From NCBI RefSeq assembly GCF_001280205.1, contig NZ_CP012573.1, positions 248,001-312,000 on the forward strand: a stretch of 64,000 nucleotides of DNA, in the 5' to 3' direction. The notes beneath the pieces are model-generated. The model was not told where the DNA came from. It saw nothing but the letters and a program-made list of their open reading frames with translations, and searched no databases. Source of the stretch: Clavibacter capsici (GTDB lineage: Bacteria > Actinomycetota > Actinomycetes > Actinomycetales > Microbacteriaceae). The translations under genes were made by a program, and so were the position numbers. Positions 1-64,000 of the stretch are shown here, in pieces. Each line of letters opens with the position of its first letter. The first letter of the stretch is position 1.

Positions 1-1705
1 CGGTGGTGTGGCTGACGCCCGACGCGATGTGGGAGCCGAGCAGCTCCGGCGGGAGGAGCTGCATGGTCCAGCGCATCATCTGCTGGCGGTCGAGCGGGTC
101 GATGCAGTCGGAGACCCAGACGCGGTCCGTGCGCTCGAGCACGCCGAGGTCGACGCGGGATCCGCCCGACGAGCACGACTCGATCTCGAGGCCGGGGAAG
201 CGCGCGCGCAGCTCGTCCATGAGGCGGTAGGCGGCGAGCGTCTGCAGGTGCACGCCCGCCTCGCCGCGCGGGTGGATGCCGGCGTCGACGAGGTCGCGGT
301 TGTGGTCCCACTTGACGTACGCGATGTCGTTCCCGCTCAGGATCGCCGTCATCCGCTCGAGCACGTACGCGTACGCCTCGGGGATCGCGAGGTCGAGCAC
401 CTGCTGGTCGCGGGCGCGCACGGGGAGGCGGCCGCCGGTGGCCATGATCCACTCGGGGTGCGCCCGCGCGAGGTCGGAGTCCTCGTTCACCATCTCGGGC
501 TCGAACCAGAGGCCGAACTCCATGCCGAGGCCCGTGACGTGGTCGACGATCGGGTCGAGCCCGTCGGGCCAGACGTCCTCGTCGACGTACCAGTCGCCGA
601 GTCCCGCGTGGTCGTCGCGGCGGTGGCGGAACCAGCCGTCGTCGAGCACGTAGCGCTCGACGCCGAGGGCCGCGGCGCGGTCCGCGAGGTCCGTCAGGCG
701 CGCGAGGTCGTGGTCGAAGTACACGGCCTCCCACACGTTGATCGTCATGGGGCGCTCGCGGCGCGGGTGGTAGTCGCGGGCGCGGAGGAAGCGGTGGAAG
801 CGGGCGGCCTGGTCGTCGAGGCCGTGGCCGAACGCGGCGTAGACCCACGGGCTCGCGTACGCCTCGCCCGTGGCGAGCCGCACCTCGCCGGGCAGCAGCA
901 GCTCGCCGCCGCCGATCACCTGGCGGCCGGTGGACAGGCGCTCGGCGTAGTGGCGGTGGTTGCCGCTGAACGCGACGTGCACGCCGCGCACGTCGCCGTG
1001 CCGGAAGCCGAAGCCGGGCGTGCCGACGGAGAGGAGGGTCGCGGCATCCGGGCCGGTGCGGCCCTTGCGGCCCTCGCGCTCGTGGATCCCGACCACGAGC
1101 TCCCGGCGCTGCGGCGTGCGCTCGAGGCCCCAGCGTCCGGCGAAGTCGAGGATCTCGCGGGCCTCGGCCGGCAGGGGCAGCGCGAGCTGGAGGCCGCCGA
1201 CGGAGTAGGTCGTCTCGCCGGTGTTGGTGACCTCGGCGCGCGTGCGGACGAGGCCGGACGGCAGCAGCTCGACGTCGAGCGCCAGGCCGAGGCCGGCGTG
1301 CTCGTCGACCGCGTCGACGTGCACGAGCGCGGGGCCGGTGGACGCGGATCCGGGACGGCCGTCGACGCCCGACGGGAGGGGCGAGCCGTCGACGGCGGCG
1401 GCGGTCACTCGGAACAGCGGCGACCAGTCGGCGCCGTCGCGGTGGCCCTCGAGGCCGGGCTTGCCGGTCCAGGACGTGTGCGCCTCGGGCAGGATCGCGA
1501 GGCGGACGGGCCGGTCGGCGGTGCTGCCGGCGATCGGCTCGACGGCGGCGAGGGCCAGCGTCTCGAGATCGGCCGGGGTGGTCTCGCCGAGGTCGGCGCC
1601 CCAGTGCACGACGGCCGGGAGGCGCCCGTCCGTGAGGTCGAGCACCAGCGAGACGCCGGAGGCGCGGAGGTGGAGGAGGGCGGAGGGGACGGCGGTGTCG
1701 GGCAT
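1..1705 (-). CDS. alpha-galactosidase, glycoside hydrolase family 36 (C-terminus beyond window)
   Basis: Predicted retaining alpha-galactosidase that releases terminal alpha-galactose from raffinose-type sugars or galactomannan. It is read on the minus strand from an ATG at 1705, and 568 residues are visible before the window ends. An N-terminal beta-sandwich region is followed by the catalytic barrel with the motif WYVDEDVWPDG. The nucleophile lies in YVKWDHNRD (Asp467), and the acid/base lies in CSSGGSRVD...SDCIDP (Asp533). Family GH36 proteins are usually about 700 residues, so the C-terminal domain is missing only because of the window edge. No signal peptide is visible, which suggests action on imported oligosaccharides. 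Family assignment is strong; the substrate is inferred. Confidence 0.93.
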   Translation of the reverse strand, partial: MPDTAVPSALLHLRASGVSLVLDLTDGRLPAVVHWGADLGETTPADLETLALAAVEPIAGSTADRPVRLAILPEAHTSWTGKPGLEGHRDGADWSPLFRVTAAAVDGSPLPSGVDGRPGSASTGPALVHVDAVDEHAGLGLALDVELLPSGLVRTRAEVTNTGETTYSVGGLQLALPLPAEAREILDFAGRWGLERTPQRRELVVGIHEREGRKGRTGPDAATLLSVGTPGFGFRHGDVRGVHVAFSGNHRHYAERLSTGRQVIGGGELLLPGEVRLATGEAYASPWVYAAFGHGLDDQAARFHRFLRARDYHPRRERPMTINVWEAVYFDHDLARLTDLADRAAALGVERYVLDDGWFRHRRDDHAGLGDWYVDEDVWPDGLDPIVDHVTGLGMEFGLWFEPEMVNEDSDLARAHPEWIMATGGRLPVRARDQQVLDLAIPEAYAYVLERMTAILSGNDIAYVKWDHNRDLVDAGIHPRGEAGVHLQTLAAYRLMDELRARFPGLEIESCSSGGSRVDLGVLERTDRVWVSDCIDPLDRQQMMRWTMQLLPPELLGSHIASGVSHTT

Positions 1706-1810
1706 GCTGCTCCTGCGTCGGTGCGGAAGGGGATGCGACCATCCTCCCGTGCCGGGGCCCCGGCGGCGGCTGCGCGACACGGGCGCGCGGCGACGGGAGC
1801 GGGGCGGGAC

Positions 1811-2164
1811 CTACCTGTCGAGGTCCTCGAGACCGGGCACGGCCACGCCGTCCTGGTGCTCCGCGGAGACGCGGGTGCCGTCCTGCGAGGACCGGGAGAG
1901 GACCGTCGCGGCGTGGATCCGGGCGACGAGCTCGGGATCCCGCAGCTCGTCGCCCCCGGGCTCGCCGGCCTCGACGACGAGCTGGCTGGCCGGGCCGATG
2001 AGCAGCTCGACGCGCTCCACGGATCCGTCGGCGACGCGCACCGGGATCACCACGGTCGCCGCCGCCGTGCCCTCGCGCGCGAGCGCCTCCGCGTAGCCGA
2101 CGACCGCTGCCGCGACCTCGTCGCCCGTCAGGTAGCGCCCGTCGGCGTAGTGGATGATGTGCAC
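1811..2164 (-). CDS. small protein of unknown function
   Basis: I do not recognise this 117-residue acidic protein. It has no signal peptide or membrane segment. The start is uncertain: the GTG at 2164 lies only one base after a good GGAGG, and no better in-frame start with ideal spacing is present. Codon third positions are strongly G/C, which supports real coding. It sits alone between the alpha-galactosidase and the divergent aldo/keto reductase, and its start is about 100 bp from the latter's, so the two share an upstream region. Confidence 0.6.
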   Translation of the reverse strand: MHIIHYADGRYLTGDEVAAAVVGYAEALAREGTAAATVVIPVRVADGSVERVELLIGPASQLVVEAGEPGGDELRDPELVARIHAATVLSRSSQDGTRVSAEHQDGVAVPGLEDLDR

Positions 2165-2255
2165 CCCTCCAGTGAATGCCCTCCGGCCCGGGTCGCCTAG
2201 GGGGCGTGGAGCGGTCGGGTCCCTGGTCGGCTGCGGCCGGCGCGCCGCCCCTCGG

Positions 2256-2261
2256 TACGCT
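2256..2261 (+). promoter_or_regulatory. -10 element of a predicted leaderless promoter (TACGCT)
   Basis: TACGCT fits the actinobacterial TANNNT -10 pattern and ends 6 nt before the ATG at 2268. Transcription would then begin at or next to the start codon, giving a leaderless mRNA. No Shine-Dalgarno sequence precedes the ATG, consistent with this. No clear -35 was found. Confidence 0.5.
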
Positions 2262-2267
2262 CGGCGG

Positions 2268-3272
2268 ATGACCTACGTCGCTCATCCCGATCGCTACTCG
2301 TCCATGCCGTACCGCCGCTCCGGCCGCTCCGGCCTCAAGCTCCCCGAGCTGTCGCTCGGCCTCTGGCACAACTTCGGCACCGCCCGCCCCATCGACACGC
2401 AGCGCGCCATCGTCCGTCGCGCGTTCGACCTCGGCATCACCCACTTCGACCTCGCGAACAACTACGGCCCGCCCCCCGGCAGCGCCGAGACCGCGTTCGG
2501 CCGGATCCTCGCCGAGGACCTCCGCCCGTACCGCGACGAGATCGTCATCTCCTCCAAGGCCGGCTACCTCATGTGGGAGGGGCCCTACGGCGAGTGGGGA
2601 TCCCGCAAGTCGATGCTGGCCTCGCTCGACCAGAGCCTCGGCCGCATGGGCCTCGAGTACGTCGACGTCTTCTACTCGCACCGCCCGGATCCCGAGACGC
2701 CCATCGAGGAGACCATGGGCGCGCTCGCCACCGCGGTGCACCAGGGCAAGGCGCTCTACGCCGGCATCAGCAACTACTCGCCCGAGCAGACCGAGCGCGC
2801 GGTCGCGGCGCTCGCCGAGCACAAGGTGCCGCTGACGATCCACCAGCCGAGCTACTCCATGTTCAACCGGCACGTCGAGGGCGGGCTGCTGCCCGTGCTG
2901 GAGGAGGCCGGATCCGGCTGCATCGTGTTCTCGCCGCTCGCGCAGGGGCTGCTCACCGACCGGTACCTGTCGGGATCCATCCCCGCCGACTCGCGCGCGG
3001 CCACCAGCGGATTCCTCGACGAGTCCGCGGTCTCGTCGGTCTACCTGGAGCGGGCCCGCGGTCTTCAGCAGGTGGCCGAGGGGCGCGGGCAGACGCTCGC
3101 GCAGCTCGCGCTGTCGTGGGTGCTGCGGCACCCGGGGATCACGAGCGCGCTCATCGGCGCCTCGAGCGTGGAGCAGCTGGAGCAGAACGTGGCCGCGGCC
3201 GGCGCCCCGGCGCTGACGGACGACGAGCTGGCGGCCATCGAGCCGCTCGCGGTCGACGGCACCGGGCGCTGA
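2268..3272 (+). CDS. aldo/keto reductase, YghZ/MgrA-like
   Basis: NADPH-dependent aldo/keto reductase of 334 residues in the subfamily that reduces L-glyceraldehyde 3-phosphate and other small aldehydes (YghZ, also called MgrA). The (beta/alpha)8 barrel tetrad is visible: Asp61 and Tyr66 in HFDLANNYG, Lys97 in ISSKAGY and His138 in FYSHRPDP. The C-terminal cofactor loop contains GITSALIGASS. The ATG at 2268 was chosen because family similarity (SSMPYRRSGRSGLKLPELS) begins just after it and a leaderless -10 precedes it. The dipeptidase gene begins 7 bp after its stop, so they are probably co-transcribed. Physiological role is inferred to be aldehyde detoxification. Confidence 0.92.
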   Translation: MTYVAHPDRYSSMPYRRSGRSGLKLPELSLGLWHNFGTARPIDTQRAIVRRAFDLGITHFDLANNYGPPPGSAETAFGRILAEDLRPYRDEIVISSKAGYLMWEGPYGEWGSRKSMLASLDQSLGRMGLEYVDVFYSHRPDPETPIEETMGALATAVHQGKALYAGISNYSPEQTERAVAALAEHKVPLTIHQPSYSMFNRHVEGGLLPVLEEAGSGCIVFSPLAQGLLTDRYLSGSIPADSRAATSGFLDESAVSSVYLERARGLQQVAEGRGQTLAQLALSWVLRHPGITSALIGASSVEQLEQNVAAAGAPALTDDELAAIEPLAVDGTGR

Positions 3273-3279
3273 TCCGCGG

Positions 3280-4485
3280 ATGACGGACGCGCCCGACCCC
3301 ACCTCCCTCGCCGACCGCGTGACCCGGATCCTCGACGCGCAGGGGATCGTCGACGGCCACGACGACCTCGCCTGGGCGCTCCGCGAGCGCGCGGTGCGGG
3401 AGGGCGGGCCGAGCGCGTCCGTCGCCGACGACGTGCTCGCGCGCCTCGCCGTCGACGACGCCGTGCCGGGCCTGCACACCGACCTGCCGCGCCTGGAGCG
3501 CGGACGCGTGGCGGCGCAGTTCTGGTCGGTGTGGGTGCCGGACCTGCCGGGCATCGACCCGGTGCGCTCCACCATCGAGCAGGTCGACGTGGTGCGCCGC
3601 CTCGTCGCCGCGCACCCGGACCGGCTCGCGCTCTGCGTCACGGCCGACGACGTGGACCGCGCGGTCGCGTCGGGCCGCATCGCCTCGCTCCTCGGCATGG
3701 AGGGCGGCCACTCGATCGGCGGATCGCTCGGCGCGCTCCGGACGATGCGCGCGCTCGGCGTCCGGTACATGACGCTCACGCACAACGCGAACGTGGCGTG
3801 GGCCGACTCCGCGACCGACACGCCCGTGCTGCACGGGCTGAGCCCCGAGGGCGAGCGCGTGGTCGCCGAGATGGAGCGGATCGGCATGGTCGTCGACCTC
3901 TCGCACGTGTCGGCCGACGTGATGCGCCACGCGCTGCGGATCGCCCGCCGGCCCGTGCTCTTCTCCCACTCGGGCGCGCGGGCGGAGTGCGACGTGCCGC
4001 GCAACGTGCCCGACGACGTGCTCCAGTCGCTGCCCGCGAACGACGGCGTCTGCATGGCGACGTTCGTGCCGCAGTTCGTGTCGCCCGCGGTGGCCGAGTG
4101 GCACGACGAGACGCTGATGCTGGCCGTGGCGGAGGGCGTGGATCCGCGCGACCACGAGGGCGTGCAGGCCGTCGCCGCGAGGCGCCCGGGCGAGCGGCCG
4201 CGCGCGACGCTGGCCGACGTCGTGCGGCACGTGGAGCGGATCCGCGAGGTCGCCGGGCCCCGGCACGTGGGCCTCGGCGGCGACTACGACGGCGTCGACC
4301 GCACGCCCGACGGACTCGAGGACGTGTCGCGCTACCCGGCGCTCATCGCCGCGCTCGCCCAGCGCGGCTGGTCGGACGAGGACCTCCGGGCCCTCGCGGG
4401 CGGCAACGCGCTGCGCGTGCTGCGGGCGGCGGATGCGGACGACGACGTGTCGCGCGGGCCGGCCGACGCGGGGCCGCTCGGGTGA
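3280..4485 (+). CDS. membrane dipeptidase family zinc hydrolase (peptidase M19)
   Basis: A 401-residue metallo-dipeptidase of the renal dipeptidase family, which cleaves dipeptides, including those with D-residues. The binuclear zinc ligands are all visible: His27 and Asp29 in DGHDDL, Glu141 in GMEGGHS, His209 in DLSHVS and His230 in FSHSGAR. The substrate Asp is in GLGGDYDG. There is no signal peptide, so it is probably cytoplasmic, as usual for bacterial members. The gene overlaps the following acetyltransferase gene by 4 bp (GTGA), which suggests translational coupling. Confidence 0.92.
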   Translation: MTDAPDPTSLADRVTRILDAQGIVDGHDDLAWALRERAVREGGPSASVADDVLARLAVDDAVPGLHTDLPRLERGRVAAQFWSVWVPDLPGIDPVRSTIEQVDVVRRLVAAHPDRLALCVTADDVDRAVASGRIASLLGMEGGHSIGGSLGALRTMRALGVRYMTLTHNANVAWADSATDTPVLHGLSPEGERVVAEMERIGMVVDLSHVSADVMRHALRIARRPVLFSHSGARAECDVPRNVPDDVLQSLPANDGVCMATFVPQFVSPAVAEWHDETLMLAVAEGVDPRDHEGVQAVAARRPGERPRATLADVVRHVERIREVAGPRHVGLGGDYDGVDRTPDGLEDVSRYPALIAALAQRGWSDEDLRALAGGNALRVLRAADADDDVSRGPADAGPLG

Positions 4486-5315
4486 CGGGGGAGGCGGCCG
4501 ACGCCGCCGCCGTGCTCGGCATGGATCGGCGCGCCGCGGCCGCCCTGCTCGACCGGCTGGCCGACCGCGGCTGGCCCGCGGAGCACCGGGAGCGCCACGG
4601 CGGCTGGATCCTGCGCGCGGCCGGCGGTGTCACGAAGCGCGCGAACTCGGCGCTGCCCGCGGGGCCCGTCGTCGACGTCGACGCCGCGCTCGACGCGGTC
4701 GAGGCCTTCGCGCGGACGCACGGGATGCCCGCGTGCGTGCAGGTGTCGCCCGCGTCGGAGCCCGCCGACCTCGCGTCGACGCTGGCCGCGCGCGGCTACG
4801 TCGCCGACGCCCGGACGCTGGTGCAGGTGGCCGACGCGGACGCCGTCGCGCGGCGTCTGGGGGAGGTGCGGGGCGGGGATCCCGCGCTCGAGGTCACCGT
4901 CGCCGACGCGCCCGACGACGCCTGGCTCGACGCGTGGTGGAGCGTCGACGGGCGCGGCGGATCCGTGGAGCGAGCGGTCGCGCGCGGGATCCTCACGGGC
5001 GGCCCCGCCGTCTACGCGGCGGTCCGCGAGCGCGCCGCCGACGGATCCGCTGGCCGCGTGCTCGCGACCGCCCGCCTCGCGCTCGTCGACGGCTGGGGCG
5101 GCCTGTTCGCCGTCGCGACCCGGCCGGAGGCGCGCCGCCGCGGGCTGTCCCGGGCGGCGATGGCGGCCGCCATCGCCGCCGGACGGGAGCGCGGGATCAC
5201 GGCGCTCTGGCTCCAGGTGGTCGAGGGGAACGCGGGCGCCCGCGCGCTCTACGCCGGGCTCGGCTTCGCCTCCGCGTCGCGCTACGAGTACTGGACGCGC
5301 CCGGCGGACGCCTGA
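4482..5315 (+). CDS. GNAT-family N-acetyltransferase
   Basis: A 277-residue acetyltransferase. The C-terminal half holds a typical GNAT fold: the acetyl-CoA pyrophosphate loop is seen as ATRPEARRRGLSRA (Q/RxxGxG-like), followed by ALWLQVVEGNAGARALYAGLGF, the conserved beta4-alpha4 segment. The N-terminal half, about residues 1-140, resembles the degenerate first domain of double-GNAT proteins. The GTG start at 4482 overlaps the dipeptidase stop by 4 bp. Substrate is unknown; the dipeptidase neighbour hints at amino acids or peptides, but this is only inference. Confidence 0.88.
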   Translation: MTGEAADAAAVLGMDRRAAAALLDRLADRGWPAEHRERHGGWILRAAGGVTKRANSALPAGPVVDVDAALDAVEAFARTHGMPACVQVSPASEPADLASTLAARGYVADARTLVQVADADAVARRLGEVRGGDPALEVTVADAPDDAWLDAWWSVDGRGGSVERAVARGILTGGPAVYAAVRERAADGSAGRVLATARLALVDGWGGLFAVATRPEARRRGLSRAAMAAAIAAGRERGITALWLQVVEGNAGARALYAGLGFASASRYEYWTRPADA

Positions 5316-5351
5316 CGCGCGCGGCCGACGCCTGACGCGCGCGGGCGTCAG
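5307..5351 (+). repeat. tandem duplication plus hairpin at a convergent gene junction
   Basis: An 18-bp segment, GACGCCTGACGCGCGCGG, occurs twice with a 20-bp period (5307-5324 and 5327-5344). The first copy contains the stop codon of the acetyltransferase gene. CTGACGC at 5332-5338 pairs with GCGTCAG at 5345-5351, giving a 7-bp stem that may serve as a weak terminator. The second arm overlaps the stop codon of the convergent DUF2207 gene. Confidence 0.6.
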
Positions 5352-7174
5352 ACCCCGCCGCCCCCGCCTCCTCCACCGCCGCCGCCGGACGTGGTCCCTC
5401 CCGTGGATCCGCCGCTCGTGCTCGACCCCGAGTACGTGGCGTGCATGCTCGACGACACCGACGAGATCGAGCTGGCGAACAGCGCGGGCGCGAACGGCGC
5501 CTGCCCGGCGTACCAGCCCGGCTGGCTCCGCTGGTGCTCGTAGCGGCGGCCGAGCTCGTCGCCCCACTCGCGCTCCTGGCCGGACATGGCGGCGTAGGGC
5601 AGCAGCTCCTCGGTGAGGCGCAGCGCGTCGCGGTCGTCGAGCGGCAGGTCGCGGCGCTCGGCGCCCTCGGGCGACTGGAGCATGCGGATCCGGTCGGCCT
5701 CGGCCAGCCGGATGAACTCCTGGAGCCCCGCGAGGTGGTCGCGCAGCGCGACGCCGCGCTCGGTGAGCGGGTGCTTCACGACCGCGAGGATCGTCACGGC
5801 CAGCGCGAGCACGCCCGCGACGAGGAACGCGATGACGATCGGCCCGCCGTACGCGCCCACGAGCGCGAGCACCGCGAACGCGATCGCGGCGGCCATGCCG
5901 AGCGCGGCCACGACGAGCAGCAGCACGATCGGGCCCACCGGGAGCGGCTTCCGCAGGCCGTCCGTCACGGCGCGCTTCCGCACTCCGGCCATGACCTTCT
6001 GGATCCGCGTCGCCACCTTCGCGTCGGTGCGCGCCAGCTCCGTCACGGCGCCGGGTCCCGCGCCGTCGCCGAAGACCGCGGCGACGAAGCGCCGCTCGTC
6101 GGGGTCGGTGACGCGCGACGGATCCACGAGCTCCAGCGCGAAGGCGGGCTTCCGGCCGCCGTCCCGCTCGAGGATCCGCACGGCCCCGCGCACCGCGAGG
6201 TCGAGCAGGAGCGCGGTGGTCGCGCGCGCGGCGTTCCCCGAGACGACGGACGAGACCAGCACGCCCACGCCCTCCGGCGGCTCGTACTGCGCGACGATCG
6301 TGCCGCGGCCCGGCGCGTCGGCGAGACGTCGGCGGCGGAGGACGAGCGCGCCGGCGGCGGCGGCCAGCGCGAGGAGCGCGCCCGCCAGCGACAGCGACGG
6401 CCACGGCGCCGCGAGGAACGACGAGTCGCGCGGCGTGAAGGTGCCCTGCTCGAAGCCGAGGGAGATGCTGAGGTTCTCGTGCGGTCCGAGGTCGGTCGCG
6501 CTGGCCGCGAAGCCGGTGGCGGTGCGGGTGATCTCCGCGGGGCCGTCCGCGCCCGCCGGCCCCGCGGCCGCGTCGGCGCCGCCCGTGAGGCGGGGGAGCA
6601 GGTCCGGCGCGATCTCGACGGTCGCCGTCACGCGCGCGAACGGCTGCGCCCAGCCGAGCCCGTTGACGTCCCAGTAGAACTCGTCGGCCTGCGTGTCCGC
6701 GAAGGCGCGGGTCACGTCGTGCTGCTCGTACTCGATCACGTAGGTCTGCTCGCCGCGCACGTACGCGTCGTCGTCGGCGATGGTGAGGACGGTCGCGCCG
6801 TCGTCGGAGTCCGTCTCGTACGCGCGCGGGGCGCCGGCGCCGTCCGTCACGGAGAGCACGCGGAGGCCCGTCGGGTGGCCGTCGTAGTCGGCCACGAGCT
6901 CGCGGCGGATCCCGCGGTTCTGGTCCCGGTCGGGGAACTCGGCCACCAGCGTCTCCGTCGTGCGGAGGACCGAGCGGCCGTCCTCGTCGGCGGACAGCCG
7001 GTACACGGCGTCGAACGAGCGGAAGGAGAAGTCGTCCACGCCGGCGTGCGCGGGCGCGGCGAGGCCGAGGGGGATCGCGAGCGCGGTCAGCAGCGCGGCG
7101 ACGAGCGCGAGGCGCGTGCGGGCGGTTCGCGTGCCCGCGATGGTGCCCGCGCGGGTGCCGGTGCGCTCACGCAT
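5348..7174 (-). CDS. DUF2207 family membrane protein
   Basis: A 608-residue membrane protein of unknown function. Residues 1-41 are a signal sequence ending AAPAHA. The extracytoplasmic DUF2207 domain follows, with the family signature region RNRGIRREL, DEFYWDVNG and FARVTATVEI. A transmembrane helix lies near residue 270 (LSLAGALLALAAAAGALVL), and two more lie near 415-465. The protein ends in a serine- and glycine-rich tail with a run of glycines, as is usual for this family. The ATG at 7174 overlaps the upstream gene by 8 bp. It probably acts in the cell envelope together with the small upstream protein. Confidence 0.88.
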   Translation of the reverse strand: MRERTGTRAGTIAGTRTARTRLALVAALLTALAIPLGLAAPAHAGVDDFSFRSFDAVYRLSADEDGRSVLRTTETLVAEFPDRDQNRGIRRELVADYDGHPTGLRVLSVTDGAGAPRAYETDSDDGATVLTIADDDAYVRGEQTYVIEYEQHDVTRAFADTQADEFYWDVNGLGWAQPFARVTATVEIAPDLLPRLTGGADAAAGPAGADGPAEITRTATGFAASATDLGPHENLSISLGFEQGTFTPRDSSFLAAPWPSLSLAGALLALAAAAGALVLRRRRLADAPGRGTIVAQYEPPEGVGVLVSSVVSGNAARATTALLLDLAVRGAVRILERDGGRKPAFALELVDPSRVTDPDERRFVAAVFGDGAGPGAVTELARTDAKVATRIQKVMAGVRKRAVTDGLRKPLPVGPIVLLLVVAALGMAAAIAFAVLALVGAYGGPIVIAFLVAGVLALAVTILAVVKHPLTERGVALRDHLAGLQEFIRLAEADRIRMLQSPEGAERRDLPLDDRDALRLTEELLPYAAMSGQEREWGDELGRRYEHQRSQPGWYAGQAPFAPALFASSISSVSSSMHATYSGSSTSGGSTGGTTSGGGGGGGGGGGV

Positions 7175-35394: not shown

Positions 35395-35480
35395 CGGGAT
35401 CCTCACGTGGCGGCGGCGGCGTCCACGGCGACGGTGCCTCGGACGGGTCCCGGACGCGATCCGGGGCGCATCGACCGCCC

Positions 35481-35525
35481 TTGACGAGCAGTACATCGAT
35501 GCACATAATCTAGTACAACGATGTA
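35481..35525 (+). promoter_or_regulatory. strong promoter with two LacI-type operator-like palindromes
   Basis: TTGACG (35481-35486) and CATAAT (35504-35509) are spaced 17 bp and form the best sigma-70-type promoter seen here, reading toward the ABC operon. Two CG-centred imperfect palindromes lie within it: GTACATCGATGCAC (35491-35504) and TACAACGATGTA (35514-35525). Their centres are 22 bp apart, two helical turns, and AGTACATCGATG / AGTACAACGATG form an 11-of-12 direct repeat. A LacI-family gene ends the operon, so autoregulation is likely. Confidence 0.7.
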
Positions 35526-35601
35526 GAAGGCACCAGGGCGGTGCGTGCGGCCACGCGGCCGAGCCTCTCGGGGCCGACACGTCACGGACACGAGGAGCGC
35601 G

Positions 35602-36888: not shown

Positions 36889-37835
36889 CCGCACCCGTGA
36901 TCACCCGGCTGGAGGGCGCGGTCGCGTCCCCGGCCTCGAGCGCGGTGCGCGACCGCGGCGGCATGGCGAGGAGGCGGCGCCGCACCGGGATCCTGCTGGT
37001 GCTGCCGGCCCTCGTGATGCTCCTCACCTTCTTCATCTGGCCGCTGATGCGCACGATCGCGATGAGCACGTACACGTGGCCGCTGCTCGGCAACCGCGCC
37101 TTCACGGGCCTCGCGAACTACGTCGAGGCGTTCCAGGACGCCGCGTTCCTCAAGGCCGTCGGCTTCACGCTCGTCTACACGGCGGTCGTGACCCCGGTGC
37201 TCCTCGTGATCGGCCTCCTGCTGGTGCTGCTTATCCAGCGCCGCACGCGCACCGCCCGGATCTTCCAGTCGATCTACTTCCTGCCCGTGGTCGTCGGCCT
37301 CGCCTCCGCGAGCTACCTCTTCCTCTTCATGTGGCAGCCGGTGATCGGGCCGACCATGAAGGCGCTCGCCGGGATCGGCCTCGTCGACGTGTCGACCAAC
37401 ATGTTCGGCGGGAACGTGACCGCGTTCCTCGTGGTGGTGAGCATGGTCGCGTGGAAGTCCGCGGGGCTCCAGATGCTGCTCCTGCTGTCGGGCTTCCAGT
37501 CGATCCCGCAGGAGGTGAACGAGGCGGCCGAGGTGGACGGATCCACCCGCTGGCAGCGGTTCTTCCACATCACGCTGCCGCTGCTGCGGCCGACCCTGGC
37601 GCTCGTGCTGGTGTTCAGCGTGGCCGGGTCGCTGCTGGCGTTCGACCAGTTCTACATCATGACCGCAGGCGGGCCAGACAACGGCACCATCACGGCGGTC
37701 TACGAGATCTACCGCTCCTCGTTCATCCGGCTCGACCTCGGCTACGGGGCCGCGCTCTCCATCATCCTCATGGTCGTCCTCGGCCTCGTCAGCGCAGCCC
37801 AGATGCTGCTCCTCCGGAACTCGGACCACTCATGA
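36885..37835 (+). CDS. sugar ABC transporter permease (MalF-type)
   Basis: A 316-residue permease with six transmembrane segments, beginning GILLVLPALVMLLTFFIWPL. The EAA loop is QEVNEAAEVDGSTRWQRFFHITLPLLRP. The GTG start overlaps the SBP stop by 4 bp. Forms the import channel with the next gene product; no ATPase gene is in the operon. Confidence 0.92.
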   Translation: MTAPVITRLEGAVASPASSAVRDRGGMARRRRRTGILLVLPALVMLLTFFIWPLMRTIAMSTYTWPLLGNRAFTGLANYVEAFQDAAFLKAVGFTLVYTAVVTPVLLVIGLLLVLLIQRRTRTARIFQSIYFLPVVVGLASASYLFLFMWQPVIGPTMKALAGIGLVDVSTNMFGGNVTAFLVVVSMVAWKSAGLQMLLLLSGFQSIPQEVNEAAEVDGSTRWQRFFHITLPLLRPTLALVLVFSVAGSLLAFDQFYIMTAGGPDNGTITAVYEIYRSSFIRLDLGYGAALSIILMVVLGLVSAAQMLLLRNSDHS

Positions 37836-39851: not shown

Positions 39852-39880
39852 TCTCGTGGTCTGCCCGCCGTGGATGCTTC

Positions 39881-39905
39881 GGCACGTTCTCGGGGCCGAC
39901 GTGCC
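39881..39905 (+). terminator. short stem-loop after the LacI gene
   Basis: GGCACGT (39881-39887) pairs with ACGTGCC (39899-39905), leaving an 11-nt loop. It lies 30 bp past the lacI stop. GC content drops just downstream. Confidence 0.45.
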
Positions 39906-40047
39906 CACCCGATGGCCGCTGACCTGGCATGCAGGCAGTCGATGCCACCGAGGACGGATGTCTCCCGACGCTTGTGGATCGGTTGACGTGCGTCCACGAT
40001 TGCGTCCTCAGATTCGAAGTCCTGAACAACCGACCGAGAGGAAGACG

Positions 40048-40338: not shown

Positions 40339-40349
40339 GGTCGGCTCGC

Positions 40350-40526
40350 ATGACATCAATGGATCGAAAGAACATCCCGACCTGGATCGCGGCTGTGGTC
40401 GCGTTCCTCCTCGCTGCGATCTGCTTCTCCCTGCTTCCGTCAGGCTGGGCGATCGTGGTCTATGGCGTGCTGGTCTTCGGCATCGCGTTGATCTACCGGG
40501 CTTCGTCTTCGAGGGCGAGCAGGTAG
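40350..40526 (+). CDS. small two-helix membrane protein, immunity-like
   Basis: A 58-residue protein with a short polar N-terminus, two transmembrane helices (about 11-30 and 33-50) and a basic Arg/Ser tail. It begins 11 bp after the secreted-peptide gene and is followed directly by a strong terminator, so both form one transcription unit. Size and topology match many bacteriocin self-immunity proteins, but no sequence family was recognised. Confidence 0.6.
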   Translation: MTSMDRKNIPTWIAAVVAFLLAAICFSLLPSGWAIVVYGVLVFGIALIYRASSSRASR

Positions 40527-40533
40527 TCCACCA

Positions 40534-40569
40534 CCGAGGGGTGTCTCGGCTCTCCGAGGCACCCCTCGG
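40534..40569 (+). terminator. 16-bp stem terminator of the peptide operon
   Basis: CCGAGGGGTGTCTCGG (40534-40549) pairs with 40554-40569, matching at 15 of 16 positions, with a 4-nt CTCT loop. It begins 7 bp after the stop of the two-helix protein. Confidence 0.85.
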
Positions 40570-40647
40570 GTCGCCTCCTCCATCGAGCGGCAGCGAGCGA
40601 GCGCGGGCGTAGCGATCGAGGATCGGGACGAAGGTCGAATCCCCCAG

Positions 40648-48651: not shown

Positions 48652-48663
48652 CGTGCGTGCACG

Positions 48664-49074
48664 ATGCTTGACCGGTTGGGGCGGTCGACGCAGAACATGA
48701 TCGCCCTGGCTGAGGACATGCGGGGGAGGCGCGCGTCGCTTCGGGTGCTGAACCTCGGCAGGGGAGACATGGAAACCGCGACCCCAATAGGGTCGACGGT
48801 CTTCACCGTGATGGCGGCGCTCGCGTACATGGGGCTCGAGATCGCGCGAGAGCGCATCACGAACTCGGTATCCAAGCGCCGGGCGGCAGGCAAGGACCTG
48901 AGTGGCCGGCGCCAGGCCTTCACCGACAGCCAGGTCAAGAACGCTGCGAGACCGATCGATGCCGGCGAGCCGACCGTCCAGGTCGCGCGCGACCTGAGCA
49001 CGTCCAGGGCGACGCTGTACCGCCAACTTCGGGACCGCCAAAGAGCCGAAGCGGCAACTGCGATCACGAGCTAA
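48664..49074 (+). pseudogene. truncated serine recombinase (resolvase/invertase) remnant
   Basis: A 136-residue reading frame matching the C-terminal two thirds of resolvase/invertase proteins. LDRLGRSTQNMIALAEDM and the helix-E region FTVMAALAYMGLEIARERI are followed by a C-terminal HTH (AFTDSQVKNAARPIDAGEPTVQVARDLSTSRATLYRQLR). About 60 N-terminal residues, including the catalytic Ser and its arginine partners, are missing, so it cannot be active. It begins 13 bp after ppc, which suggests the element inserted or was deleted at this point. Confidence 0.8.
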
Positions 49075-49113
49075 GGAGGTCGCAGGGGCACCACTATATG
49101 ACCCCTCCGGACT

Positions 49114-49193
49114 CTTTTCCGAAGGGTTCGGCTGAAACGCGTTGCTGCGGCTGGCGACAGCCGTGCCTCAGTAGCGGATACCGTTCGGAAAAG
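49114..49193. repeat. 10-bp inverted repeat downstream of the recombinase remnant
   Basis: CTTTTCCGAA (49114-49123) and TTCGGAAAAG (49184-49193) are perfect inverted repeats separated by 60 bp. They lie in a 195-bp noncoding gap next to the recombinase remnant and may be a relic recombination site or transposon end. Too far apart for a simple terminator. Confidence 0.45.
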
Positions 49194-49269
49194 TGGGCGC
49201 CCCGCAGGCAGAATTTTCTTTCGTGATGCGCGCCCGGTGTCGACTACATTGCGCTTTTGGCGCGCGGCA

Positions 49270-49698
49270 TTAGAAGTCGAGCACCATGCCCGGGAACTCT
49301 CCCGTGTAGCTCTCGACCGCGTCCCCGACGTTGACCTTGGAGTCCTTCTCGTCGAGCATCTGCTGTAGACGCCGCTCGTCAGAGCGCAGTGTCTCTGAGC
49401 GCTCCCCGCCCAGCCCAGCGATCGCGGCGATGTTGAGCCCTTGCTTTGTTCGGAACGTGCGCGCGACCGCCAAACGTGCTTCAGCTCGAACAATCTTGAG
49501 CACCGTCTTCGCAATTGCCACAGAGCCAATGACGTCCCCGCTCTCCGGGTCCTTAATGTCGCGGCCCAGAGGGTCCATCACTGCGAACTTCATTCCGACT
49601 TCCACGCCATCCTCGCTACCACGGTTGATCACGAGGTCTGTACTAGTCAGTAGCTGCGCAACTTTGGCGCGGATGAGGGTAGGTTCTTCACTGCTCAT
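49270..49698 (-). CDS. small protein with FlgT C-terminal-like region, function unknown
   Basis: A 142-residue soluble protein. Residues about 20-80 (DLVINRGSEDGVEVGMKFAV then IKDPESGDVIGSVAIAKTVLKIVRAEARLAVA) have the pattern of FlgT C-terminal or related small beta domains seen in bacterial surface-assembly proteins. A charged helical region (SDERRLQQMLDEKDSKVNVGDAV) and a short tail follow. It overlaps the upstream membrane protein gene by 11 bp, so the two form a unit. Lower GC than host genes. Similarity is by pattern only. Confidence 0.6.
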   Translation of the reverse strand: MSSEEPTLIRAKVAQLLTSTDLVINRGSEDGVEVGMKFAVMDPLGRDIKDPESGDVIGSVAIAKTVLKIVRAEARLAVARTFRTKQGLNIAAIAGLGGERSETLRSDERRLQQMLDEKDSKVNVGDAVESYTGEFPGMVLDF

Positions 49699-50155
49699 TT
49701 TCGGTTCCGTCCTCCGGGGTAGTCGCCATTCGTCTGTACAGCAAGTACCAGTTCGCGGCGAGGTCTTCGTGATCGCGCGAGGCCTGGGAAAGACGCCAGC
49801 TCAACTCGCCGACGACCTTCTTAGCGACGAGGGCTGCCCCGTCGTCAACTGCAGTCTCGGCAAGCTCGCGAGCGACAATCAGATCGTCTGCGAGGCGTTT
49901 GTGGCCCTGCATCTGCATGCGCAGAGATTCCGCGTTCGGAGCACCACGAGCGAACAAGTAGGCCGACGCCAGTTGGAACAAGCCAGAGACAAGCACCAAG
50001 AATCCGCTCTGCGATCCCGACGGCGGAGTCTTGCTTGATGCAAGGAACGCAACCCATGCGGCAAAGGCGATGCCAGCCACCAGTGCGCCCGCGCCGAGAA
50101 GCCGAAAGCGGTGCCGCCAGCACCACTGCCGCACTTGTCCTCGACCAGAATCCAC
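49688..50155 (-). CDS. two-helix membrane protein of the island operon
   Basis: A 155-residue protein with a basic N-terminus, two transmembrane helices (about 18-40 and 49-69) and a cytosolic helical domain (GHKRLADDLIVARELAETAV and VVGELSWRLSQASRDHEDLAANWYLLYRRM) that may form a coiled coil. I do not recognise the family. The start at 50155 is the first in-frame ATG of a frame with consistent coding use. Overlaps the FlgT-like gene downstream by 11 bp. Confidence 0.6.
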   Translation of the reverse strand: MDSGRGQVRQWCWRHRFRLLGAGALVAGIAFAAWVAFLASSKTPPSGSQSGFLVLVSGLFQLASAYLFARGAPNAESLRMQMQGHKRLADDLIVARELAETAVDDGAALVAKKVVGELSWRLSQASRDHEDLAANWYLLYRRMATTPEDGTENEQ

Positions 50156-50350
50156 AACTGGAGCTTAGTGGGGAAACGGTCGGTGCTCGCGATGGCCGAT
50201 CCGTGGCTTGACTGTGCGGCGAGGTCACCCGCGTGCGTGCAGTGGGTCAGTGCACAGTTATGTGACCACGAGCGTCCGGGAAGCGGTCTCCCCTTGGATG
50301 TCGTCTCCGGCGAGGTAAGTGCGTACAGTCGTGATACGAGGTAAGGGCGG

Positions 50351-51400
50351 ATGCGCATGGGATTCATGGATCGACTGCTTGGTCGCAAGGGCGGATCCGT
50401 TTCGGATCTTGCTGAGGCGGAGTCGTACGAGGCGCGGCATACCCGTGCGGATGCCGCCGGGTCATTCCGCGGTAAGCACTTCACGGAGTGGGCTTCGCGA
50501 GTGGATCAGCTGCGGGCCGAGGGGCGGCCCGATGAGTCTCTCGCCTTGGCGTACGAGTGCATCGAGGCGACGGAGCGCCAGCACGCAATTGACGGGACTG
50601 GAGTCGCGCCTGGCTACTACCGAGATGCCGCGGTGGTCTTGCGTGCGCAAAAGAGGTTCGTGGAGGAGGTCCAGGTCCTCGAGCGGTACCTTCAGCACGC
50701 AACTGGGAGGCACCCTGAGATTGAGGATCGAGTTCGTAAGGCGACCGCTCTACGTGACGCCGGACGGGACGCAGTGCCGCTCGCGTGTCCGGCGTGTGCA
50801 GAGGTGCTTGAGGCCCCGCCAAAGTCTCGAGGTAAGTGCCCTTCGTGCGGCCAGCAGCTGGTCATGCGCAGTGTCCACGGGCAGAGAAAGGCCCTCACGC
50901 CAGATCAGGCAGCGGCGTGGACCGCTGCCGATAAAGCGGAGAAGTCCCGTGCGTCGTTCCTCAAACGCTTGGGGTACTTCGGCGTCGCTCGGTCTCAATG
51001 GGACCGAGTACGCGCTGAGCAATCAGCGCGGTTCGGTCACTCGGCAGCTGACGGTGACGTGTACTGGCAGCTGGCGAACGAGGCTGCTGTCCGGCACGAG
51101 AGCGCCGCCGAGTGGGGCGAGGCCGGCCGCGTGCGAAGCGATATGACCAAGTTCTTGGTCGAGGAAGGCCGCGATTGGGTGTCTGCCGGGCGCTTGGCCG
51201 AGGCGAACTGGATGCGAGCTCTTCAGCAGTACGACTCTCTAAGTGCCGAGATGATCCTCATCGCATGTCCGTGTGCGAACTGCCAAAAGGACGATCTCGC
51301 GGTCGCCTCCTTGCGGGATTTCTTGTCCGCTTGGCCGCTGCCGCATACGAACTGCAGCCGGCCGCCGTGTCGTTGCCGCATTACGCGCAAGACCCACTGA
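50351..51400 (+). CDS. zinc-ribbon protein with helical-repeat region, function unknown
   Basis: A 349-residue protein. Residues about 40-130 look like a helical TPR-type repeat region (WASRVDQLRAEGRPDESLALAYECIEATERQ). A zinc ribbon follows (CPACAEVLEAPPKSRGKCPSCGQQL, about 145-170). The C-terminus has a second cysteine cluster (CPCANC and CSRPPCRC) that could bind another zinc. Three ATG codons lie in the first six positions, so the precise start is unsure. Divergent from the membrane-protein operon and 93 bp ahead of the HEPN gene on the same strand. I assign no function. Confidence 0.65.
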   Translation: MRMGFMDRLLGRKGGSVSDLAEAESYEARHTRADAAGSFRGKHFTEWASRVDQLRAEGRPDESLALAYECIEATERQHAIDGTGVAPGYYRDAAVVLRAQKRFVEEVQVLERYLQHATGRHPEIEDRVRKATALRDAGRDAVPLACPACAEVLEAPPKSRGKCPSCGQQLVMRSVHGQRKALTPDQAAAWTAADKAEKSRASFLKRLGYFGVARSQWDRVRAEQSARFGHSAADGDVYWQLANEAAVRHESAAEWGEAGRVRSDMTKFLVEEGRDWVSAGRLAEANWMRALQQYDSLSAEMILIACPCANCQKDDLAVASLRDFLSAWPLPHTNCSRPPCRCRITRKTH

Positions 51401-51493
51401 GCGCGTTGTAGGGCCGTCCGGGAACAGCGATCCTATCGGGCACCCACTTGCGGTTGTGCTTTAGATGTAAACCTTCGATTGCAAGGAGTACGA

Positions 51494-52114
51494 ATGCCAG
51501 TCATAACGCCTCTAAGGGCTGCGACGGATGTGCTCGATCGGGCTGATGCGCTTCTGGGCCTCGACGCTGACCCATTGCAGGATCCTCTTCGTACCGACGT
51601 GCGGCGGCTCGCATGGGCTATGGGTGTTGCCTCGATTGACACCTACTTACACTGGTTAGTTCATGCCGTGGACTTGGCTGCTCCGCTACCGAACGCGCTC
51701 AGGAAGCTAGATGTGCGGTTTGAGGATCTCGTTGCAATGGGGAAGTCCAGCGTCACGGCGCGTCAATCGGGCAAGCGTGACAGGCCGATGGTCCGCGCCC
51801 GTAACGTGTTGCACGCCCGGGTCCTGAAGGACACCTACCAGTCCGAACGCGGCGTTGAGACGGCGCTCGGCCTAGCGGGAGTCACAGGGTATTGGCGCGA
51901 CCTGTCCCTCCACATGGGTGAGCCTTCCCCAGCTATCAAAAGCCACTTGAACTCACTTGCGGCCCGCCGCAACTCCGTCGTGCACGAAGGTGACATCAAG
52001 CGTCAGGCGCGGCCTCGCGCAATTCGGCACAAGGAATTAAGTGCGGCCGATGTGAGGAGCGAGCTGGACTGGGTTCGGCGCTTTATCGCTGCGCTGGCCG
52101 TGGTGGCTCCCTGA
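51494..52114 (+). CDS. HEPN-domain protein, RiboL-PSP-HEPN-like
   Basis: A 206-residue protein whose pattern fits the RiboL-PSP-HEPN family (putative RNase). The N-terminal helix pair (LRTDVRRLAWAMGVASIDTYLHWLV) matches the family start. The predicted catalytic RX4-6H motif is Arg159-Asn-Ser-Val-Val-His164 in AARRNSVVHEGD. AGGAG at 5-nt spacing fixes the ATG at 51494. HEPN RNases act in toxin-antitoxin, abortive infection and RNA-processing systems. No MNT antitoxin gene is next to it. Low-GC composition supports acquisition with the island. Confidence 0.72.
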   Translation: MPVITPLRAATDVLDRADALLGLDADPLQDPLRTDVRRLAWAMGVASIDTYLHWLVHAVDLAAPLPNALRKLDVRFEDLVAMGKSSVTARQSGKRDRPMVRARNVLHARVLKDTYQSERGVETALGLAGVTGYWRDLSLHMGEPSPAIKSHLNSLAARRNSVVHEGDIKRQARPRAIRHKELSAADVRSELDWVRRFIAALAVVAP

Positions 52115-52391
52115 TTTCTGATATTCAGGGTCCCGGGGTAGGCGCTCGGCTTGCGGGTCGCAATCACGATAAGCAGCCCGGCAAGAATCACGATACAGAG
52201 CGACGGTACTCACAAGTGGCTGGCAGCGTCGTCGGCCTCAAGAAGGAGGACCTGTCGCACGCCTGTCCCTCCCCCGCTCGGTGATGTGTGCAGAACCAAC
52301 GCGTGCTCGGTCACGAAGCCGCACAACCCGTCGCGTAACCATCGGGCACGACCTCGAGCGAGAACCTGACTCGTTGAGAACGGGGTGCGCA

Positions 52392-53542: not shown

Positions 53543-54199
53543 CTACGCGGGGAAGCCGTGCAGCGCCACGTGCTGCAGCAGGATCACCGTCTTGCCGTCC
53601 GCGATGCGCCCGTCGGCGACCATCGCGAGCGCCTCGTCGAGCGTCACCTCGATCCGCTCGATGTCCTCGCCCTCCTCGGCCACGCCGCCGCCCGCGCCCA
53701 CGACGTCGGCGGGCGCGTACGCGGCGAGGTAGTGGTGCACGCGCTCGGTCACGGATCCGGGGCTCATGAACAGGTCGAACAGGTGCGTGAGCGCGACGAC
53801 CTCCACGCCCAGCTCCTCGCGGGCCTCGCGGCGGATGGCGTCCTCGGGGGAGTCCTCGTCGAGGAGGCCGGCCGCCGCCTCGACGAGCATGCCGTCCGGG
53901 TGGCCGTTGACGTAGGCGGGGTAGCGGAACTGGCGTGTGAGGAGGATCCGGTGCGTGTCGGCCGCGTAGAGCAGCACGGTCGCGCCGTCCCCGCGGTCGT
54001 ACGTCTCGCGCTGCTGCTCCTGCCAGGATCCGTCGCGCAGCCGCAGGTCGAGCGTGGTCCGGCGGAGCACGTGCCAGCCGTCGGAGGTGACCTCGACGCG
54101 CTTCACGACCACGTCGGGGTTGCGGTCGAGGTCCGTCCCGCGCAGGTGGAGGCCGGTGCGGCCCCGCGAGTCGGGCACGGTCTCACCGGGGCGCGTCAT
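53543..54199 (-). CDS. nudK: Nudix hydrolase, GDP-mannose pyrophosphatase (NudK)-like
   Basis: A 218-residue Nudix enzyme. The sequence order (RRTTLDLRLRDGSWQEQQRETYDRGDGATVLLY, then LLTRQFRYPAYVNGHPDGMLVEAAAGLLDED and SPGSVTERVHHYLA) matches NudK proteins that hydrolyse GDP-mannose. The Nudix box is AGLLDEDSPEDAIRREAREELGV with REAREELG supplying metal ligands. Substrate could be another nucleotide sugar or ADP-ribose. Single gene; the mannosidase operon elsewhere in the window is not obviously linked. Confidence 0.87.
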   Translation of the reverse strand: MTRPGETVPDSRGRTGLHLRGTDLDRNPDVVVKRVEVTSDGWHVLRRTTLDLRLRDGSWQEQQRETYDRGDGATVLLYAADTHRILLTRQFRYPAYVNGHPDGMLVEAAAGLLDEDSPEDAIRREAREELGVEVVALTHLFDLFMSPGSVTERVHHYLAAYAPADVVGAGGGVAEEGEDIERIEVTLDEALAMVADGRIADGKTVILLQHVALHGFPA

Positions 54200-54231
54200 G
54201 CCGCCATCCTCGCGGGCGGCCAGGCGTCGGC

Positions 54232-57996: not shown

Positions 57997-58004
57997 TCCG
58001 CGCG

Positions 58005-58699: not shown

Positions 58700-58729
58700 G
58701 TCGTCGGGTGCGGTCCGGCCGCGCGGGCG

Positions 58730-62813: not shown

Positions 62814-62875
62814 GCGTGTTCCCCACAGTCCGAATAGCGTTTCCCTCAACGTAGGGGTGACCGAGGGAGACCGCC

Positions 62876-63649
62876 ATGGCCGGAGCACGCACGCGGGACG
62901 ATGACGGCGGCGATGCGCCTGGGGAGGGAGCGGCGAGCCCGCGGACCCTCTGGGTGAGCGGCGCCGGATCCGGCGTGGGCCGCGCGACCGCCGTCGCCGC
63001 CGCCCGCGACGGCTGGCACCTCGTGCTGTCGGGCCGCCGCCGGGAGGCGCTCGAGGAGACGCGCGCGCTCGTGGGGGCAGCGGGATCCGCCGCGGTCGTC
63101 GCCCCGCTCGACATCACCGACGACGCCGCGCTCGCCGGCGTGGTGGCGGGCCTCGACCGGCTCGACGGGATCGTGGTGGCGGCCGGCCTCAACGCCCCGC
63201 GCCGCTCGTGGGCCGACCAGGACCTCGCCGACTTCGACCGGATCGTCGCGACCAACCTCACCGGCACCGCGCACCAGGTCGCCGCCGCTCTCCCGCTGCT
63301 GCGGGCGTCCGGCGGCACCGTCGTGCTCGTCTCCTCGTACGCCGCATGGACCCACTCGCCGGGGGCCGGGGTCGCCTACAGCGCGTCGAAGACGGCGCTC
63401 GCGACCCTCGTCCGCGACCTCAACGCGCAGGAGGCGGGCAGCGGGATCCGCGCCACGCACCTCTGCCCGGGCACGATCGACAGCGACTTCCTCGCGCTCC
63501 GGCCCACCGTGCCCGACGCCGCCGAGCGCGCCGCCATGCTCACGCCGGACGACGTGGCGCGGGCCGCGATGTTCGTGCTCGCCTCCCCGCCGCACGTGCG
63601 CGTCGACGAGCTGGTGCTGTCCCCGATGTCGCAGCGCGGCGGATTCTGA
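62876..63649 (+). CDS. SDR family oxidoreductase
   Basis: A 257-residue SDR with a 22-residue charged N-terminal extension, cofactor motif VSGAGSGVGRATAV, VAAGLNAP in place of NNAG, SSYAAW and the catalytic YSASKTALATL. HLCPGTIDSDF follows. It is divergent from the sugar SDR, 62 bp apart. Substrate is unknown. Confidence 0.9.
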   Translation: MAGARTRDDDGGDAPGEGAASPRTLWVSGAGSGVGRATAVAAARDGWHLVLSGRRREALEETRALVGAAGSAAVVAPLDITDDAALAGVVAGLDRLDGIVVAAGLNAPRRSWADQDLADFDRIVATNLTGTAHQVAAALPLLRASGGTVVLVSSYAAWTHSPGAGVAYSASKTALATLVRDLNAQEAGSGIRATHLCPGTIDSDFLALRPTVPDAAERAAMLTPDDVARAAMFVLASPPHVRVDELVLSPMSQRGGF

Positions 63650-63662
63650 CGGCCTCGCCGGG

Positions 63663-64000
63663 TCAGCTCGCCCCCGGCACCACGATGCCGCGCTCGTACG
63701 CGAACACCACGGCCTGCACGCGGTCGCGCACGCCGAGCTTCAGCAGGAGGCGCGACACGTGCGTCTTCACGGTGGCCTCGCCGAGGTAGAGCCTCTCGGC
63801 GATCTCCGCGTTCGCGAGCCCCTCGGCGAGGAGGCGCAGCACCTCGAGCTCGCGGTCGGTGAGGGTCTGCACGCGCGGGTCCGTCGGGATCGTCGGGGCG
63901 GCTGCGGAGGCCGGAGCGTCGTCGTCGGCCGCGCCGGATCCGCGGCCGAACCGCTCGATGACCCGGCGCGTGACGTCGGGCGAGAGCAGCGCATCCCCGC
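63663..64000 (-). CDS. LuxR/NarL-type response regulator, C-terminal part (N-terminus beyond window)
   Basis: The last 112 residues of a two-component response regulator. The linker GDALLSPDVTRRVIERFG is characteristic of NarL-type receivers, and the HTH is LTDRELEVLRLLAEGLANAEIAERLYLGEATVKTHVSRLLLKLGVRDRVQAVVFAYERGIV. The receiver domain and start lie beyond the window end. The partner kinase is probably upstream, outside the window. Confidence 0.9.
   Translation of the reverse strand, partial: GDALLSPDVTRRVIERFGRGSGAADDDAPASAAAPTIPTDPRVQTLTDRELEVLRLLAEGLANAEIAERLYLGEATVKTHVSRLLLKLGVRDRVQAVVFAYERGIVVPGAS

Follow-up and report, generated by a model that had tools for sequence, protein, structure and literature searches.

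GGATCC is a highly iterated, genome-wide word maintained in a genus of Microbacteriaceae

The stretch of DNA analysed here (the window) comprises 64,000 bases of Clavibacter capsici (contig NZ_CP012573.1, positions 248,001 to 312,000), with a guanine plus cytosine (GC) fraction of 0.734, and our subject is the palindrome GGATCC that recurs along it. The window contains 149 copies, 122 within called open reading frames (ORFs) and 27 outside them, against 20.5 expected from base composition, that is, a 7.3-fold excess. A preliminary description of this DNA had reported about 19 copies in its first 5,410 bases and an enrichment in two sampled stretches. Direct counting gave 20 copies in 1..5410, a dense stretch without strand assignment, seven in 21742-24924 and eight in 43-46 kilobases (kb). 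The enrichment extends beyond the window, with 5,909 copies in the whole genome of 3,241,713 bases (1.82 per kb, or 1,820 per megabase, Mb) and an observed/expected ratio (O/E) that lies between 2.6 and 6.8 in each of the 21 stretches taken from the main contig.

The sites in the first 10 kb begin at positions 158, 1084, 1346, 1915, 1935, 2021, 2503, 2598, 2687, 2910, 2973, 3326, 4140, 4238, 4606, 4877, 4959, 4987, 5043, 5405, 5686, 6001, 6120, 6172, 6907, 7832, 8116, 8385, 9246, 9639 and 9979; those between 10 and 20 kb at 10602, 10637, 10971, 11085, 11530, 12612, 13639, 14138, 14183, 14591, 14614, 16156, 17571, 18194, 19196, 19221 and 19510; those between 20 and 30 kb at 20146, 20308, 20950, 21753, 22554, 22919, 23044, 23929, 24570, 24888, 25107, 25943, 26652, 27499, 27715, 27950, 28467, 29154 and 29715; those between 30 and 40 kb at 30664, 30790, 31661, 31692, 31939, 32161, 33063, 33133, 33335, 33573, 33838, 34095, 34364, 34667, 34870, 35099, 35249, 35397, 35680, 35717, 36081, 36493, 36803, 36988, 37539, 38797, 39482 and 39825; those between 40 and 50 kb at 40996, 41539, 41972, 42394, 42530, 42921, 43677, 43710, 43872, 43996, 44562, 44999, 45844, 45885, 46436, 47785 and 48582; and those between 50 and 64 kb at 50393, 51580, 52689, 53399, 53753, 53944, 54026, 54248, 54625, 54838, 55298, 55585, 55773, 56071, 56277, 56456, 56864, 56904, 57164, 57776, 57982, 58204, 58763, 58799, 59719, 59734, 59920, 60117, 61439, 61636, 61661, 61865, 62011, 62966, 63083, 63444 and 63936. 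The sites at 1915..1920 and 1935..1940 (direct count, no strand) serve as examples; they lie only 20 bases apart, and pairs this close are rarer than expected.

Among the genes of the window, a 910-residue ORF on the plus strand (45919..48651) with three sites is probably a phosphoenolpyruvate carboxylase, because short pieces of its DNA match annotated ppc genes, and it was included in the orthologue test described below. The gene at 53546..54202 (minus strand, three sites) was matched in 18/18 genomes of the genus and anchored the orthologous stretches; it is in two pieces in G149, and its match in G031 has one in-frame stop. The ORF span 33052..36897 holds 17 sites, but its minus-strand frame is doubtful, with a third-position divergence only about twice that of second positions, and it was left out of the conservation test as likely to be in the wrong frame.

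Our main null model shuffled synonymous codons within each gene, so that proteins and per-gene codon usage were kept. It was applied to the window plus 20 spaced 20-kb stretches of the main contig, in which 352 called ORFs cover 85% of 464 kb; genes were called with a simple caller of our own (GC at third minus second codon positions), which is not a validated annotation. GGATCC was seen 791 times against about 186 expected (O/E 4.25). No hexamer class with 5 or more expected copies has a higher z, and none with 20 or more has a higher O/E; the ORFs of the window alone gave 122 against 27.8. The excess is found in every frame, as GGA|TCC (308 vs 33, O/E 9.3), GG|ATC|C (249 vs 115, 2.2) and G|GAT|CC (234 vs 38.5, 6.1), and the density of the word is 2.01 per kb in called ORFs and 2.36 per kb in other DNA. 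Hereafter, G000 is this genome and g1 its genus, and G138 and G227 are genomes of the genera g6 and g78. Stricter pooled shuffles that also kept neighbouring bases left O/E values of 1.7-2.8 in G000, 1.9-2.6 in G227 and 2.9-5.3 in G138; these nulls are conservative because the contexts that they keep are themselves inflated by GGATCC. A maximal-order Markov model fitted to the window gave an O/E of only 1.31, which we regard as uninformative because the site itself raises the counts of the five-base sub-words. The dicodon-preserving shuffle suggested in the preliminary description was rejected as a null because it keeps GGA-TCC by construction.

The word is sharply defined. Seven of the other nine NGATCN classes have O/E values of 0.95-1.12 in G000, and the two that exceed this, GGATCA/TGATCC (1.6) and GGATCG/CGATCC (1.34), do so as partial sites. 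Variants at the central AT (positions 3/4) are at 0.63 (GGCTCC), 0.58 (GGACCC/GGGTCC) and 0.93 (GGTTCC), those at positions 2/5 are low as well (GAATCC 0.66, GCATCC 0.92, GTATCC 0.43), and those at positions 1/6 reach 1.12 (AGATCC), 1.34 (CGATCC) and 1.6 (TGATCC). The best form is CGGATCCG, whose flanks extend the word palindromically (209 vs 31.6-31.8 expected, O/E 6.6). Codon choice follows the site: GGA makes up 65% of glycine codons before TCC versus 2.3% before AGC, and GAT 76% of aspartate codons in the G_CC context versus 7% after C. The preliminary description had held GGA, TCC and GAT to be otherwise rare, which is true of GGA (9% of glycine) and GAT (13% of aspartate) but not of TCC (33% of serine). 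The same null showed other departures in the window and in stretches L005-L024: runs of C are strongly avoided (CCCCCC 47 vs 490), CCAGG and GGACC are low, and TGCA is high.

Maintenance of the sites between species was examined in alignments of 14 orthologous genes from a total of 17 genomes of the genus, with 6 to 16 of them represented per gene, through 131 genome pairs with more than 300 shared codons each and a median third-position divergence of 0.15. The codon letter concerned differed between pairwise orthologues far less inside GGATCC than outside it: 2.6% vs 31% for GAT, 13.5% vs 41% for GGA, 4.2% vs 29% for NGG and 2.8% vs 22% for TCC, with bootstrap intervals over columns separate for all four. 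Synonymous changes that break a site were 3 to 12 times rarer than identical changes elsewhere; at four codon positions, GGATCC sites already present are seldom lost by synonymous change. Apparent gains were raised, GGC to GGA being at 30% vs 1% and GGG to GGA at 60% vs 1.3%; as the pairs are unpolarised, these figures mix gains with losses in the partner genome, and several come from few columns. Transitions (GAC/GAT, GGG/GGA) and transversions (GGC/GGA, TCG/TCC, NGC/NGG) lean in the same way. The occurrence in all three frames and the synonymous conservation show that the bias acts on DNA and not on protein, as the preliminary description had argued, and the excess outside ORFs and the choice among synonymous codons agree with this. 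The GGATCC excess is therefore real, strong, exerted at the DNA level and evolutionarily maintained.

GGATCC is a highly iterated genome-wide word of this Microbacteriaceae genus. Among 149 genomes of the family, three of this genus reach 1.82-1.92 copies per kb and G138 reaches 1.41, while the remaining 145 stay at or below 0.93; the sizes used for the other genomes are rounded values. CGGATCCG occurs 1,118-1,959 times in each of 18/18 genomes of the genus. Within the five genomes of g6, G138 has 2,680 copies against 137, 336, 494 and 592 in the rest, and among 396 genomes of the order only G000 and G227 exceed 1 per kb, followed by G435 with 0.89. Under the codon null, O/E was 4.0 in G031, 4.7 in G099, 6.4 and 4.3 in G138 (5.5 in two further stretches) and 0.3-1.7 in 13 other stretches. 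In G227 it was 3.8, with GGATCC ranking first, against 0.88 in 12 pooled congeners of similar or slightly higher GC (0.24-1.64 singly); the 16 G227 congeners listed have 0.16-0.44 copies per kb. G435 was rejected as a further gain, its O/E being only 1.5 despite the raw density. Judged from this distribution, read without a species tree, GGATCC probably rose at least three times, in g1, in G138 within g6 and in G227 within g78.

The g78 congeners of G227 have a word of their own. In the 12 pooled (stretches L238-L249), the top hexamer is GCATCC, which is part of GGATGCC/GGCATCC (O/E 3.1), and the longer word is enriched in both coding orientations (3.85 and 2.68). G227 itself has GGATGCC at 0.76 and GGCATCC at 0.36, GGATCC being enriched instead. 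Both words can be described as CGG and CCG separated by a short spacer. An AT spacer is enriched in G000 (209 vs 31.8, O/E 6.6), G227 (47 vs 9.5, 4.9) and G138 (34 vs 3.6, 9.5), and an ATG/CAT spacer (CGG-ATG-CCG) in the g78 congeners (125 vs 18.9, 6.6) and in two genomes of g53 (L029, L030 and L037; 20 vs 4.1, 4.9). In these pooled g78 and g53 stretches, GGATGCC/GGCATCC leads the list of over-represented words. Other listed spacers of two or three bases are at or below 2.7 in these groups, except ATC, which contains the site, and neither AT nor ATG is clearly enriched in the sampled genomes of g13, g109, the rest of g6 or elsewhere in the family. In a small set of genes near a shared methylase, where the same protein is encoded, G227 has GGGATCC for a congener's GGCATCC in 7/17 comparisons, which probably concern a single site compared with seven congeners. 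The sister word shows no preference for either strand (340 and 361 copies in 23 stretches, with no excess of variation between stretches, p 0.13).

Along the main contig, the preliminary description had proposed looking at the distribution from origin to terminus; taking the contig start as the origin, which is an assumption, O/E does not change systematically as one moves away from the contig end (Spearman -0.02), and the raw count declines (Spearman -0.64, with the 64-kb window also in the list). Counts per gene are close to homogeneous (variance of z 1.2). Close pairs are depleted, with 38 gaps below 50 bases against 63.5 under independent realisation (z -3.7), and no clear periodicity of 3, 10, 10.5 or 11 bases is seen between sites within 300 bases. 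The foreign-looking stretches of the window had been said to lack the word. The counts stand, at two in 48652..52391 (GC 0.628, no strand; 6.8 expected at the genome rate) and none in 39852-40640 (1.4 expected), but they are mostly explained by protein content or small size: the called proteins of the former allow the word at 10 places, of which 3.7 would be expected realised, and the latter has no called gene. By eye, the first ORF of 48664-52114 starts like part of a serine recombinase, suggesting a mobile island. The smaller contigs C2 and C3 have a lower GC and about half of the chromosomal GGATCC excess, and are possibly plasmids. Three stretches of G138 (L066, L067 and L260) look prophage-like by eye and carry PF01555 methylases, and in one of them, L260 of contig C14 (which also includes L067), GGATCC is enriched (8 vs 1.9).

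The C5 methylase family (PF00145) was found in 12 of the 20 genomes tested, including G099 and G138, but not in G000 or G031; the Dam family (PF02086) was found in seven of them and not in G000, G031, G099 or G138; Vsr was found in three, G000 among them, and not in G031, G099 or G138. None of the three is co-distributed with the word in these genomes, and they were rejected as drivers. GATC is not favoured generally and PF02086 was not found in G000, unlike the pattern of a Dam repair mark, and the word is present in three genomes where Vsr was not found, unlike a Vsr footprint. We also note a Vsr-like endonuclease gene in G000 (C1:2024893-2025078, L080), though no C5 methylase was found there, and that the C5 methylases of G099 (L126, 5267-6547) and G138 (L124, 629-1570) are alike by eye. 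PF01555 methylases (N6/N4) were found in 30/30 and 23/23 genomes tested, not always as the same kind of enzyme, so that their presence does not discriminate. A single such gene is present in G000, in G099 and in G227; G031 has more, and G138 has two, in prophage-like surroundings by eye. The G000 enzyme resembles the RsrI and CcrM methylases by sequence, and its relatives (best 80 of 496 loci) come from Arthrobacter, Kocuria, Rothia, Curtobacterium, Cryobacterium and others. Of 42 loci, the 31 of the conserved type, which gave an LDPPFN motif, were aligned and 11 were dropped. No residue was common to g1 and G227 as against all 27 others; g1 and G227 agree against every g78 congener at two columns, but other word-free genomes have the same residue there, and PF01555 was thus rejected as well. 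The methylases seen do not explain GGATCC, unless an enzyme has altered its specificity unnoticed or the reader belongs to a different family, and the earlier suggestion of a methylation motif is not supported so far, the Dam and C5 families not having been found in G000 or G031 and PF01555 relatives occurring in word-free genomes.

Known DNA uptake words, that of the Neisseriaceae included, are longer and asymmetric. Chi and KOPS (FtsK) are short over-represented genome words like ours but are strand-polar, whereas GGATCC is palindromic and the word of g78 and g53 has no polarity with which to follow replication. The Neisseriaceae DNA uptake sequence (DUS) resembles ours in its thousands of copies, its conservation within lineages and its dialects with a common core, and differs in that uptake was shown by experiment there (PMC3630211). 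In mycobacteriophages of subcluster B3, GGATCC is likewise more than four times as frequent as expected across the genome, with the cause left unexplained, but those are phage genomes, and that account gives neither a codon-controlled null nor a demonstrated link to this genus (PMC4841201).

The closest likeness is with the highly iterated palindromes (HIPs) of cyanobacteria, described by Elhai (2015) as a class of words whose biological role is little known (PMC4390886). HIP1 proper (GCGATCGC) contains CGATCG, which has an O/E of 0.95 here, and GGGATCCC is the top word of the thermophilic Synechococcus JA-3-3Ab and JA-2-3B (PMC4390886). As in that class, ours is a GATC-centred palindrome, the most over-represented one (first hexamer by z and O/E in the 464 kb), at about 1-2 per kb and within the approximate range of 500-2,500 genome-wide copies per Mb, with flanks that extend to CGGATCCG, and it is replaced in some relatives. 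The central AT is least tolerant, though variants at positions 2/5 are low too. The preliminary description's comparison with HIP1 thus holds in kind and density. Unlike the cyanobacterial words, ours has an actinobacterial host, and the word of its relatives is a non-palindromic variant with one more spacer base. According to Elhai, a methylase whose predicted target lies within the word occurs in every HIP-bearing cyanobacterial genome, although single enzymes have exceptions, a link explained by a model of methyl-directed repair (PMC4390886). Among the three methylase families searched in G000, Dam and C5 were not found, and its one PF01555 gene has relatives in genomes without the word.

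We propose that GGATCC is a HIP-like word recognised by a host factor, an explanation to which we give about an even chance. The putative factor would be sequence-specific and probably two-fold symmetric, and may read a CGG and a CCG half-site on either side of a short spacer that contains AT. Weak selection would keep the sites, with odds of 4 to 10 per position derived by hand from codon choice; read as selection, these odds correspond to a scaled coefficient of about 1.4 to 2.3. With AT as the spacer in g1, G227 and G138 and ATG/CAT in the pooled g78 congeners and g53, the preferred spacing of the factor may have changed between lineages. Several observations weigh against this proposal. 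No factor has been found, and the half-site reading comes from word statistics only. The ATG spacer is asymmetric and fits a simple two-fold factor poorly, GCATCC ranks first or second among hexamers in just 7/12 g78 congeners taken singly, and the density of the sister word in the g78 stretches varies from 0.45 to 2.55 per kb, G358 being lowest. The half-words GATCC (2.3) and ATCCG (1.8) are enriched as well under the codon null. One of four G138 stretches (O/E 4.3) has CGGATC first and GGATCC second, and G227 weakens to 178 vs 53.2 (O/E 3.3) with two more stretches. The orthologue test is pairwise and unpolarised, and the gain of GAT in G_CC was seen in seven columns (0.112, interval 0.016-1.0). 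Finally, the smaller contigs of 39.9 and 145.5 kb have an O/E of 2.2 (three 20-kb stretches, L257-L259; 1.9, 2.8 and 1.7 singly), and the prophage-like stretch L066 of G138 (C2:220001-232000) has two sites against 2.8 expected.

Alternatively, a methylase may mark the word, and methyl-directed repair or selection on the mark may ratchet its number up, as Elhai proposed for cyanobacteria. The methylase link of HIP-bearing genomes and the precedent of GGGATCCC speak for this (PMC4390886), along with a density of 1,820 per Mb inside the published range, a shared intolerance at the central AT (GGACCC 0.58, GGCTCC 0.63) and the C5 methylases of G099 and G138. Yet C5 was not found in G000 or G031 and Dam in none of G000, G031, G099 and G138 (G227 was outside both tests, and C5, Dam and PF01555 were the families searched), and relatives of the single PF01555 gene that G000, G099 and G227 each carry occur in word-free genomes, with no residue to set g1 and G227 apart. 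Moreover, almost all Actinobacteria are reported to lack MutS and MutL (PMC5290159), a statement on the phylum rather than on this genome, which would undercut methyl-directed repair here. On balance we consider such a mark unlikely. A word spread by biased transmission, through favoured uptake and recombination, with lineage dialects like those of the DUS, seems rather improbable to us, since known uptake words are longer and non-palindromic and six bases at 1.8 per kb would separate self from foreign high-GC DNA only weakly. It would suit the depletion of close pairs, the lower values of the smaller contigs, the intermediate level of some partial words and the dialects with conserved arms, which resemble DUS dialects with a common core (PMC3630211).

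A functionless word produced by context-dependent mutation or repair bias alone would accommodate the enriched half-words GATCC and ATCCG and the raised apparent gains. However, transitions and transversions lean alike and losses are suppressed, which a single-lesion enzyme such as Vsr would not bring about; Vsr was not found in G031, G099 or G138, and spacing dialects are hard to derive from a mutation spectrum, so that we hold this to be very improbable. As for ordinary composition, codon usage or protein repeats, proteins and codon usage do yield about 187 of the 791 sites, and the 0.89 per kb of G435 is mostly of this kind. Against the O/E of 4.25 under the codon null, the 1.7-2.8 that persists with neighbouring bases kept, and the 0.88 of 12 G227 congeners of similar GC, this explanation is scarcely credible, and on these nulls it is refuted for g1, G138 and G227.

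Extending the host-factor proposal, we tentatively suggest, while regarding it as doubtful, that Microbacteriaceae may have lineage-specific genome-wide self-words, built of CGG/CCG half-sites around an AT or ATG spacer and read by a host protein, whose spacing would have switched repeatedly. Among the open-access matches listed, none describes this word from the genome of an actinobacterium. If the proposal is true, HIP-like systems would extend beyond the cyanobacteria to one that does not depend on the usual methylases and has dialects that evolve by spacing. Since the word differs between close relatives, one species having GGATCC and its sampled congeners a spacer variant, a comparison of a few whole genomes could reveal which gene determines the word and could separate methyl-directed mismatch repair from binding or uptake models.

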